IMG/VR virus record: IMGVR_UViG_3300007345_000403
Span: 1-20,167 of that record
Source of the DNA: a virus
Direction: 5' to 3' (one strand)
DNA: 20,167 nucleotides
Shown here: positions 51-4,124 of the stretch, piece by piece
Layout of the letters: every line of letters starts with the position of its first letter
Numbering within the stretch: the stretch's first letter is position 1
The notes under the pieces: generated by a model
What the model was told of the DNA's origin: nothing
What the model saw: only the letters and a program-made list of their open reading frames with translations
Databases searched by the model: none
Position numbers and translations under genes: made by a program

Positions 51-422
51 ATGTCTAATAATAGATTATATGATACAAGTAAAGTTAAAATTATTAAAAT
101 TCCCGCAGCTATGAATTATGGTATGCGTAAAGATGTAGAAGTTACTGCTAGTTCTAAAGATGGAGCAAACCGTGGTCAGCGAACACCCTATGCTCGTACA
201 TCAAAAAAGAAAGGCGGTTCAATAGCTAAAATGAACAAAGGAAAGCAACCAAAAAGTTATGCACAAGATACTACCCCACCATCTCCGTATGTTGCAACTC
301 CAGATGGATATATGGTTCTTAAAGAAAAAAGTGTTAATATACCTATACCTAAATCAAAACCTAAAGCCCAGCGTAAGAAAAAGGGTGGACGAATTGGTTC
401 AGGTTGTAATAGGCTTTATTAA
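51..422 (+). CDS. small basic protein of unknown function, NRLY at both ends
   Basis: This 123-aa protein is not assigned to a family. An AAGGAG ribosome site at 36-41 sits nine bases before the ATG. The protein is strongly basic, with two lysine/glycine clusters: KKKGGSI (residues 52-58) and KKKGGRIGSG (109-118). A proline-rich middle (about 75-105) suggests disorder. NNRLY occurs at residues 3-7, and the protein ends in NRLY, which the next small gene also does. Its stop overlaps the next start (TAATG), so it is probably co-translated with that gene and with the head-tail adaptor. Its place just before the adaptor suggests a minor capsid or DNA-associated virion protein, but this is inference from position and charge. 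Confidence 0.75.
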   Translation: MSNNRLYDTSKVKIIKIPAAMNYGMRKDVEVTASSKDGANRGQRTPYARTSKKKGGSIAKMNKGKQPKSYAQDTTPPSPYVATPDGYMVLKEKSVNIPIPKSKPKAQRKKKGGRIGSGCNRLY

Positions 423-556
423 TGGCTATAAATCGTGGAAGTATTCGGCAACAAATTACAAAACCAGGATTGACAAAACGATTGACCAAGACTTCTGGAA
501 AGAAGAATGGGAAAAAGAAATTAAAGGTTTCTACACCAAACAATAGGTTATACTAA
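422..556 (+). CDS. 44-aa basic protein ending in NNRLY, function unknown
   Basis: This short frame is linked by TAATG overlaps at both ends (420-424 and 554-558) and fits exactly between its neighbours. It encodes 44 residues starting MAINRGSIRQQITK, with a central run rich in Lys, Thr and Gly, and ends NNRLY. That ending matches the ending of the preceding gene and the beginning of that gene's protein. No Cys, no membrane segment and almost no acidic residues are present. A competing 95-codon frame (259-546) overlaps both genes but lacks the coupled start and the shared ending. It may be a small nucleic-acid-binding or capsid-associated protein. Function is unknown. Confidence 0.7.
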   Translation: MAINRGSIRQQITKPGLTKRLTKTSGKKNGKKKLKVSTPNNRLY

Positions 557-1491: not shown

Positions 1492-1803
1492 ATGGCTAGA
1501 GGTAAAAATGTAATCCAAGAATGTCAAATCTGTGGGTTTGAATTTAGACGTTCTTTGATGCGTTTAAACTCTAGTGGTCTACTTGTTTGTCCTGAAGATT
1601 ACGAAGGTTCTTATGATTATAAAAGTCACCCACAAAATAAATCACCCGATACTCGTAAAGAACAACCTTGGGTTATAAATGCAAGACCAGAAGATACATC
1701 ATTTAATTCTTCTGGTGGTGGTGGTGGCGGTAGAAATATTGTTTGGAACACTGCCATAGTAAACTATAATAATATTACTACTCTTTATTGGAATAATATA
1801 TAA
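1492..1803 (+). CDS. small zinc-ribbon-like protein, copy 2
   Basis: This 103-aa protein is a tandem paralog of the gene before it. Cys11, Cys14, Cys33 and His46 fall at exactly the same residue numbers, and the pattern GxxVCPxDYxGxYDxxSHPQNK is shared. The C-terminal half differs completely: it has a run of six glycines (about residues 75-80) and then a hydrophobic, asparagine/tyrosine-rich end. GGGAG-type spacing (GGGAG at 1481-1485) gives a good ribosome site six bases before the ATG. The stop overlaps the next start. Shared N-terminal domains with different tails suggest one common partner and two different outputs. Function is unknown. Confidence 0.7.
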   Translation: MARGKNVIQECQICGFEFRRSLMRLNSSGLLVCPEDYEGSYDYKSHPQNKSPDTRKEQPWVINARPEDTSFNSSGGGGGGRNIVWNTAIVNYNNITTLYWNNI

Positions 1804-4124
1804 TGGCATCATTAACTAATAAAACTATTGCTAGTACCTACAAAGATTTGCTACAAGTTAGTAATAGCAATTCAGGTGTAGATGGTACTCTTAGAAATAT
1901 TGAAGATGGCGAAGGTACTTCTTCTGCTTTACAGATTTCTCAAAGTGGTGTTAATATTGATGGTGACTTCTATATAGGTGGTAACCAGCTTACCGCAACT
2001 GTATCCGCACTAAATAATATTGCTGACCTTACTGGCACTAATGGCATTGTAGCTGTTAGTGGTGGTAATGTTTATGGGCGTTCAATCGCTGCTACAGGCC
2101 CTCTGAGCGTCACTAACGCTGATGGTACAGAAGGTAACCCAACAATTGCTTTAGTTAGCTCTGCAGTCTCTGCAGGGGCTTATGGGCCTATGTCTACATT
2201 TACTGTAGATGGGTATGGTATCATTACTGATGTAACTGTTGCTTCAACTATTTCTGCTAATGCTTTTATTGGTGGTACATTTGATGGTTCTAAACTTGAC
2301 ATTGAAAACAATGTTTCTATTGGTGGTACACTTATTGTATCAGGAACTTCTAATTTAAAAGAAATTAGTGCAACAGATGTTATCTTCAATACTGTTAGTG
2401 CAACATCTAATATTTATTCGCCTGTTGTAAGTACTGGTAGTCTTCATGCAGTTAGTGCAAGTATTGGTGATTTATATGCTGCCAATCTTTCATTTACAAA
2501 TGTGTCTGCAAATGCGCTTACTCTTTCTAATCTTACCGTACAAACATCTTCAAGTTTTGCTGGTGTTGCAACATTTACTGCAAGTACAACATATGATTCC
2601 AATGTAAACTTTAAAGATAATAAAACTCTTTCATTTGGTGATTCTGGTGATTTAGAAATTATTCATAATGGTGTACATTCAAATATTCGTGATATAGGAA
2701 CTGGTAATCTATTTATTCAAAGTAATGAAATTAGACTTACTAATAATGGTTCATTTTCTATGCTTACCTTGGCTGATGGTCAAGATGCAGATTTCCCATA
2801 TGGTGTTCAGGTAAGTGGCACGGTTAGTGCTACTAGTTTTGTTGGCCCAACTATTACAAGTATTACTACTGCTATTACATCTATTAATACTTACATTACT
2901 GGGGTGTCTGCAGTTTTTGCAGCAAGTATTAATAATACTAACAATGCTCTTACAGCTTTGTCAGCTACGATGGCTACATCTATTGACAACAGTAATACAA
3001 ACATTACAGCAAATGCGAATGCTATTACATCAGTCAATAGTGTTATTACTGCATTGTCTGCTACTATGGCTACAAGCATAGACAACACAAACACAAATCT
3101 TACAGCACTATCAGCAACAATGGCAACTAGTATAGCAAATACTAATGCCAATGTCACTACAAATATTAATGCAATTACATCTGTAAATTCTGTTATTGCT
3201 AATCTTTCTTCTACTCTAGCTACATCTATTGGCAACCATCTTCCTTTGGCTGGTGGTACAATGACAGGAACACTTACACTTGCAGGTGCGCCTAGTGCTA
3301 ATCTTGAAGCTGCAACTAAACAATATGTAGATAATCTGACTGCTGCAGCTATTCACTTCCATGACCCTGTTCGTGTAGAAAGTCCTGATAGTGCAGGTAA
3401 CTTGAATGCTACCTATAACAATGGCACTGCAGGTGTGGGTGCTACACTTACTAATGCAGGTACTCAGGCAGCACTTGTTATTGATGGTGTAACACTAAAT
3501 ACAAGTGACCGTGTTCTTATTTACAACCAAACTAATGGTTATGAAAATGGTGTATATACTGTAACTGATACAGGCTCTGCATCAACTAACTGGGTACTTA
3601 CTCGTGCTACAGATGCAGATAGTTATCAGCCAAATGATAATACTGGTATTGATGGTGGTTCATACTTCTATGTTCAAGAAGGCGATGACGGTGCAGGTGA
3701 GGCTTATGTATGTAGTAACATAGGTACAATTACCATTGGTACTACACCAATTACATTTGTTCAGTTTAGTTCTGCACTTGTATATACTGCAGGTAATGGT
3801 ATTAATATTAGCAGTGGTCGTGTAATATCTGTATCTGGTGTTCCTTCTTCAGCTACTATTGCTGCCTTGTCTGCAACAATGGCAACATCTATTGATAATA
3901 CTAATACTAATCTAACTGCACTATCTGCAACAATGGCTACAAGTATTGCAAATCATTTACCCCTTGCAGGTGGTACACTAACAGGTCATGTATCTGGTAC
4001 GGCTCTTACAATGTCTGGAGATGTTTCTGCTAATGCTTATTATGGTGATGGTTCTAATTTGACTGGTATTACTGCAGGAGCATCAGAAGGATTTGCTATT
4101 GCAATTGCTATTGCTTTAGGCTAA
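1803..4124 (+). CDS. large repeat-containing tail fibre protein
   Basis: This 773-aa protein is built from modules typical of marine phage fibres. Residues about 85-115 carry the IAATGPLSVTNADG...NPTIAL pattern. Residues about 268-325 carry the FGDSGDLEIIHNG type. A low-complexity stalk from about 360 to 478 has repeats of ALSATMATSI (at 385, 417 and 435, with a variant at 467). A GGTMTG motif (484-489) leads to AATKQYVDN and then a compact domain (518-658) beginning HFHDPVRVE and ending FVQFS. Two more ALSATMATSI copies (688, 706) and a second LPLAGGTLTG (719-728) follow. The end is hydrophobic (GFAIAIAIALG). It likely trimerises as a long adhesin. The start overlaps the preceding stop (TAATG). 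Confidence 0.75.
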   Translation: MASLTNKTIASTYKDLLQVSNSNSGVDGTLRNIEDGEGTSSALQISQSGVNIDGDFYIGGNQLTATVSALNNIADLTGTNGIVAVSGGNVYGRSIAATGPLSVTNADGTEGNPTIALVSSAVSAGAYGPMSTFTVDGYGIITDVTVASTISANAFIGGTFDGSKLDIENNVSIGGTLIVSGTSNLKEISATDVIFNTVSATSNIYSPVVSTGSLHAVSASIGDLYAANLSFTNVSANALTLSNLTVQTSSSFAGVATFTASTTYDSNVNFKDNKTLSFGDSGDLEIIHNGVHSNIRDIGTGNLFIQSNEIRLTNNGSFSMLTLADGQDADFPYGVQVSGTVSATSFVGPTITSITTAITSINTYITGVSAVFAASINNTNNALTALSATMATSIDNSNTNITANANAITSVNSVITALSATMATSIDNTNTNLTALSATMATSIANTNANVTTNINAITSVNSVIANLSSTLATSIGNHLPLAGGTMTGTLTLAGAPSANLEAATKQYVDNLTAAAIHFHDPVRVESPDSAGNLNATYNNGTAGVGATLTNAGTQAALVIDGVTLNTSDRVLIYNQTNGYENGVYTVTDTGSASTNWVLTRATDADSYQPNDNTGIDGGSYFYVQEGDDGAGEAYVCSNIGTITIGTTPITFVQFSSALVYTAGNGINISSGRVISVSGVPSSATIAALSATMATSIDNTNTNLTALSATMATSIANHLPLAGGTLTGHVSGTALTMSGDVSANAYYGDGSNLTGITAGASEGFAIAIAIALG

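Follow-up and report, generated by a model that had tools for sequence, protein, structure and literature searches.

The start of this virus record, which was analysed over its whole length of 20,167 bases (the window), holds two adjacent genes for small basic proteins that end in the same four residues, NRLY. This arrangement raises the question of whether the shared end is a signal borne by the proteins or a consequence of the way in which the genes are translated. The genes, called mechanically by script with the longest ORF chosen, and their relevant parts are as follows.

51-422, + strand: gene 1, a basic, tag-bearing protein of 123 aa (ORF; relatives have the same slot and tag)
57-71, + strand: N-terminal NNRLY of gene 1, judged coincidental (a homologue, at locus L017, reads MPKNKLYD)
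375-389, + strand: KKKGG stretch preceding the gene-1 tag (relatives often have a stretch of this kind ahead of the tag)
408-419, + strand: gene-1 C-terminal NRLY tag, AAT AGG CTT TAT (stop at 420-422)
411-413, + strand: AGG, the tag Arg codon and a Shine-Dalgarno-like triplet 8 nt 5' of the gene-2 ATG
422-556, + strand: gene 2, a basic, tag-bearing mini-protein of 44 aa (ORF; a family in relatives)
422-469, + strand: gene-2 N-terminus MAINRGSIRQQITKPG, like the coat N-terminus MAINRASIAKELLPG of relatives (ranking of N-termini)
542-553, + strand: gene-2 C-terminal NRLY tag, AAT AGG TTA TAC (stop at 554-556)
545-547, + strand: AGG, the tag Arg codon and a Shine-Dalgarno-like triplet 8 nt 5' of the adaptor ATG
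556-1227, + strand: SU10-type adaptor protein, the downstream gene, given as context (PF24175, E=1.8e-10)

As a sequence-only reading of this DNA had claimed, both proteins end in NRLY (408-419 and 542-553), the two C-terminal DNA copies are similar but not identical, differing synonymously only (CTT/TTA and TAT/TAC), and the genes are coupled, since the gene-1 and gene-2 stops each overlap the next ATG as TAATG. For the 22 + strand genes of the window and the composition of their ends, the chance expectation was 0.005 pairs sharing the last four residues. The NNRLY that had been pointed out at residues 3-7 of gene 1 is also present (57-71, with Arg as AGA, in a protein starting MSNNRLY), but its inclusion in the shared-peptide pattern did not hold: the L017 homologue starts MPKNKLYD, and for this reason the N-terminal peptide was left out as a coincidence and rejected as a third copy of the tag. 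From their sequences, the expected C-terminal Lys-C peptides are GGRIGSGCNRLY for gene 1 and VSTPNNRLY for gene 2; KKKGGRIGSGCNRLY is a tag-bearing C-terminal end of which the tag is the last four residues. The bodies of the two proteins gave zero Pfam matches up to E=1 and nothing convincing in PHROGs (the best hit of gene 1 had E=0.094), and the AlphaFold2 structure of gene 2 was not confident (mean pLDDT 60.3).

Because the Arg codon of each tag lies where a ribosome-binding site of the next gene would be expected, the codon was compared in the 121 distinct NRLY genes whose downstream DNA was long enough. It was AGG in 77 of the 79 genes whose stop is followed by the next ATG within 3 nt (abutting genes), against 9 of the 39 that are followed at a distance by a gene with a ribosome site of its own, AGA being used in the other 30 (Fisher p 9e-18 for AGG in abutting versus spaced genes, kinship ignored). 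Three more spaced genes without a clear site all had AGG, and the background share of AGG among Arg codons was 9.9% (1460/14701). These counts show a link between the choice of the Arg codon and gene overlap, and they indicate that the AGG of the tag can also act as the Shine-Dalgarno site of an abutting gene. The shared peptide had been proposed as a docking or sorting signal kept by selection; selection at the protein level was upheld, as described below, and the proposal is corrected in that AGG doubles as the Shine-Dalgarno triplet of the next gene. The arrangement resembles TAATG coupling with a Shine-Dalgarno site inside the preceding gene, with AGG 8 nt upstream and TAATG overlaps, and differs from the ordinary case in that the same bases encode a conserved tag, which persists without coupling. 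This codon result is useful in its own right, as it separates, within one motif, the part kept for translating the following gene from the part kept for the protein.

NRLY might then be a mere by-product of translation coupling, the string AATAGG..TAATG combining a ribosome-binding site with a stop/start overlap and the encoded peptide being inert. The position of AGG at 8 nt from both next ATGs and its near fixation among abutting genes (77/79) agree with such an origin, as does the situation in relatives (best 80 of 162 loci), in which different genes precede the adaptor and have a similar purine-rich site, their proteins ending in KGGRVY, KGGRIF, NRLY or GNRGKS. However, the peptide should then be lost where the ribosome site is unneeded, and this was not seen: NRLY stays with AGA where the next gene owns a site (30/39) and with CGN codons (14/14 loci), its N, L and Y codons vary mainly synonymously, and a control search of IMG/VR with the same tag codons in another order gave 0 loci. 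The pure Shine-Dalgarno reading accounts for the AGG codon only, and since the AGA- and CGN-coded tags rule it out as the sole cause, an inert peptide appears hardly credible, while coupling remains a valid second function.

Constraint on the peptide itself was examined in the slot upstream of gene 2, which was sampled regardless of the tag in 81 loci, namely the window and the best 80 of 162 loci fetched with the adaptor. The pattern used for gene 2 found nothing in 11 of these loci; at least four of them (L085, L087, L090 and L092) were false negatives, as a gene-2-like ORF with RASIRFQVTKPN precedes their adaptor. After exclusion of seven junctions that belong to an unrelated gene (six LRGK and one LKDK) from the 45 distinct junctions upstream of gene 2, the 38 related ones ended in NRLY (33), NRMY (2), GRLY (1), NSLY (1) and GNCL (1), and the differences of the tag codons from the commonest codon in the slot were 33 synonymous versus 8 non-synonymous (kinship ignored). 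These results are in agreement with the suggestion that the peptide is kept by selection.

Tags coded by AGG, AGA and CGN were found on many bodies. A search of IMG/VR for KGG (AAAGGTGG) and, after it, HNRLY-stop found 55 loci for AGR codons, six of them on contigs already in the sample, and 14 loci for CGN codons, and the tag was in frame in 55/55 and 14/14, respectively. A looser NRLY-stop pattern that also tolerates S in place of R and F in place of L matched 33 times in 20 long records and, read backwards, once. The 133 distinct NRLY ORFs divide into 90 with AGG, 33 with AGA and 10 with CGN; because L129-L183 were fetched by the AGR + KGG pattern, the CGN share is biased low, and the comparison of AGG with AGA is unbiased by the fetch. 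Since tags are coded by AGA and CGN, slot changes are mainly synonymous and the scanned ends lie in frame, the protein end itself is conserved, and where genes abut its Arg codon acquires a further function. Taken together, these data show at the level of coding sequence that the peptide is kept in the protein as a modular tag that has an additional role in translation.

A conserved end could also reflect recent copying rather than function, if 3' ends of the type KKGG..NRLY..TAATG had spread as DNA cassettes by recombination. Neighbours with near-identical ends do occur (L035:3119-3418 with GTHNRLY and 3418-3753 with GSHNRLY), and the Arg codons of the tag are AGR in 123 of 133 cases, an excess made larger by the retrieval of L129-L183 with an AGR pattern, whereas CGN accounts for 285 of the 598 Arg codons outside the tag in NRLY genes. 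Because AGR prevails even where no ribosome site is needed, this bias suggests common descent at the DNA level as one route by which the tag spread. Nevertheless, the excess of synonymous over amino-acid changes at the tag codons (33 versus 8) makes recent copying alone insufficient, and cassette spread as the whole explanation is very unlikely.

We then considered how widely the tag is distributed over proteins. Among the 1352 distinct genes called greedily from L001-L128 and the window, NRLY was the commonest C-terminal 4-mer (54 genes), and its 23 permutations were found in 0. The 112 distinct complete NRLY proteins fell into 26, 23 or 19 body clusters by increasingly permissive BLASTP, the loosest clustering merging some gene-1 variants, and in our judgement roughly ten or more unrelated bodies carry the tag. 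A [KR].?GG motif lies within the 30 residues before the tag in 41 of the 54 tagged genes, versus 107 of the 1298 others, and in 0 of the 11 tagged gene-2 types; the residue just before NRLY is often H, C or S. One body was seen both ways, as the 87-aa protein of L018:3160-3423 ends in YRKVK and its relative in L132, with 65% identity, continues into KGGKVSGHNRLY. This L018 body was untagged in HMO-2011, HTVC033P, Lederberg, MEP401, HTVC103P and CRP-1 (6/19 records examined). That a body can swap its tag type for another is no more than suggested, since two proteins that seemed to carry swapped tags showed no clear homology.

The gene-2 family behaves in the same modular way. Homologues that lack NRLY and keep the rest had been named beforehand as evidence against a shared signal, and they exist for gene 2: among its 43 distinct relatives (best 80 of 162 loci plus the window), 18 are tagged (NRLY in 15 and SRLY in 3) and 25 are not. 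The conserved end was thus retained as an observation and its strict linkage to gene 2 was not; the tag was rejected as a fixed part of this protein and is best regarded as an optional module that is not strictly needed, as the slot exceptions NSLY, GNCL and GRLY also indicate. No ORF of at least 25 aa ending in R[LM]Y was present in 14 fetched stretches of named phage records, and for this reason the tag looks lineage-bound. Searches of INPHARED by tblastn with short tag or gene-2 peptides mostly returned none, one of them giving five records, all at E 1 or worse. A scan of genome contigs with the tag pattern had 0 matches, so no host was inferred. In the open library covered, no paper was found on NRLY with phage or, by a strict search, on conserved C-terminal ends of small basic virion proteins; for cargo peptides with phage capsids (among the matches listed) and for Shine-Dalgarno overlap coding, no title or opening of an abstract described such a tag.

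NRLY stands at the exact C-terminus in 57 of its 67 occurrences, which suggests that a free end is recognised. The recognising partner could be a host or phage protein that binds C-termini, such as a protease, with the tag as a degron or PDZ-type ligand, in which case the tag would set the lifetime or the cell location of the proteins and not their loading into the virion. This placement at the end fits such a ligand, but in 12 long contigs the tagged proteins have a basic charge and occur only on the strand of the coat gene, as virion parts would, and we consider a ligand of this kind unlikely. In the 12 long contigs all 23 NRLY ORFs, which represent 22 genes because one is a nested 34-aa ORF at the fetch boundary of contig G003, lie on the strand of the coat gene, and 0 of 360 opposite-strand genes are tagged. 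The median net charge per residue in these contigs was +0.188 for tagged proteins (minimum 0.100) and -0.016 for the others, 12.3% of the untagged proteins reaching 0.100. The coat of G003 was identified by PF25209 and PF10124, and its terminase by PF17289; we take the two families matched by this coat to have the HK97 fold. No PDB sequence matched the coat up to E 0.1, and its AlphaFold2 model, made from an alignment of two sequences only, had a pLDDT of 28.7.

The charge of the tagged proteins could also be explained if they had a basic nucleic-acid-binding end that condenses or holds the phage DNA, NRLY being part of the binding surface and having no role in sorting. The high net charge, the frequent K.GG stretches and the lack of a confident AlphaFold2 fold for gene 2 would all be consistent with this role, which we nevertheless regard as quite improbable, because charge alone would not call for so specific an end, four fixed residues with a terminal Tyr, and because two more recurrent C-terminal peptides occur on similar proteins.

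The explanation that we favour, with about even confidence and partly by analogy with known systems, is that NRLY is a short C-terminal tag placed on many unlike small basic proteins as a sorting or cargo-loading signal for the virion. Given the small size and basic charge of these proteins, their genes on the coat strand and the coat-like start of gene 2, the docking or sorting to the portal or capsid that had been proposed for the peptide is plausible as a putative function. A lineage of marine phages has placed NRLY on many unlike small basic proteins, often behind KK.GG; in abutting genes the Arg codon is nearly always AGG, which can at the same time provide the following gene with its Shine-Dalgarno site, AGA being commoner elsewhere and CGN occurring as well. 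The free C-terminus would then be recognised by a part of the virion, which may be the coat, scaffold, portal or adaptor, and the basic proteins would be packaged in the head, much like proteins with the T4 capsid targeting sequence or encapsulin cargo with its C-terminal targeting peptides. Gene 2, with its coat-like N-terminus in addition, may sit directly against the shell. Should NRLY be a sorting address, it would provide a sequence rule for finding proteins that may be delivered to the host by uncultured marine phages and that annotation misses because their bodies have no known family, and it would be a C-terminal phage counterpart of the T4 signal.

The T4 capsid targeting sequence is, according to PMC9026906, a short terminal peptide of the small basic internal proteins IPI, IPII and IPIII, whose bodies are divergent. 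NRLY shares the shortness, the terminal position and the small basic carriers with unlike bodies (19-26 body clusters, median charge +0.188). In contrast, the T4 sequence is N-terminal, 10-19 residues long and removed by proteolysis, whereas NRLY is C-terminal (exactly so in 57/67 occurrences), has four residues and is known from sequence alone. The targeting (cargo-loading) peptides of Family 1 encapsulins, as presented in PMC8346489, are short and C-terminal, occur on different cargo proteins and bind an HK97-fold shell in a pocket formed partly by the N-terminal helix of the shell protein. The C-terminal position on different bodies is common to both, but the encapsulin consensus, SDGSLGIGSLKRS, is unlike NRLY, and encapsulins are microbial compartments, not phages. 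Because NRLY lacks a defining feature of each system, the N-terminal position in T4 and the consensus in encapsulins, it was filed with neither. The neighbourhood, with SU10-type adaptor and capsid proteins, also resembles that of SU10-type phages, whose heads contain five types of ejection proteins as stated in PMC9509320; in contrast, genes 1 and 2 showed no relation in sequence to any Pfam family (up to E=1) and had no convincing PHROG.

A second lead open to testing is the resemblance between the N-terminus of the 44-aa protein and that of the coat. Gene 2 of the window starts MAINRGSIRQQITKPGL, and the coat N-terminus in the long contigs reads MAINR[AG]SI[AS]KELLPGLN; as the window's own coat lies outside the record, the comparison was made with the coats of relatives. 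Gene 2 ranked first among all gene N-termini against the coat in 10 of the 12 long contigs, with scores of 22-32 versus 8-14 for the next best. In the other two it was absent from the gene list: G011 has a 45-aa ORF, and the record of G007 holds L090. The short loci L184-L189 and DSL-LC04 gave no match between gene 2 and the coat N-terminus. The stretches concerned in this resemblance are 422-469 of the window, L105:7741-8679, L094:6804-6944 and L096:3276-3410.

Eight of the 19 named records with this coat family were also examined. A small basic protein ranked first against the coat N-terminus in HTVC023P (gp50, 32 versus 19) and in CRP-901 (gp63, 36 versus 20), and none was prominent among the annotated genes of the fetched stretch in 023Pt_psg01, HTVC027P, Pag-Yong1, QDWS535, GB2A and DSL-LC04. 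The CRP-901 protein fits its own coat best (36, versus 13-26 for other coats), NRASFGKLM in the small protein standing against NRANFAKML in the coat, and HTVC023P gp50 fits its own coat and one other equally. The N-terminus of the small protein appears to track the coat of each phage, CRP-901 being the clearest case. Since the codons differ, with CGT versus AGA for the shared Arg, a recent duplication of the 5' end of the coat gene was not claimed as the origin of gene 2. Loading might have two parts, an NRLY address on changing basic effector or DNA-binding proteins and a gene-2 protein that mimics the coat N-terminus, is itself addressed in some lineages and hence sits in the shell; we hold this combined scheme to be doubtful.

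Several other features were observed in these loci. Two further recurrent C-terminal peptides are found on basic proteins, one of the VARQVKGFGAARRPKK type (19 distinct proteins in 2 body clusters) and one of the RGCGKALRGYGKAM type (17 distinct proteins in 5 body clusters), and genes of these types occur upstream of the equivalent of the window start in L009, L018, L031, L049, L060, L074, L083 and L105. In 10 of the 14 CGN loci (L201, L202, L205, L206 and L209-L214), small proteins consist of repeated KSKYMSKGGA-like units ending in CGN-coded HNRLY, and each of these loci holds the same adaptor type. Two relatives of the SU10_adaptor family were noted, one at 556-1227 of the window, after genes 1 and 2 (E=1.8e-10), and one near the coat in G003 (L105:6667-7320, E=1e-19). 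Beyond the adaptor, the window encodes adjacent, similar small proteins at 1227-1490 and 1492-1803 with C..CG and a later C, which recall zinc ribbons and match no Pfam family, followed at 1803-4124 by a protein of 773 aa in which LSATMATSI(D/A)N units recur and whose counterparts at this position in relatives vary in length.
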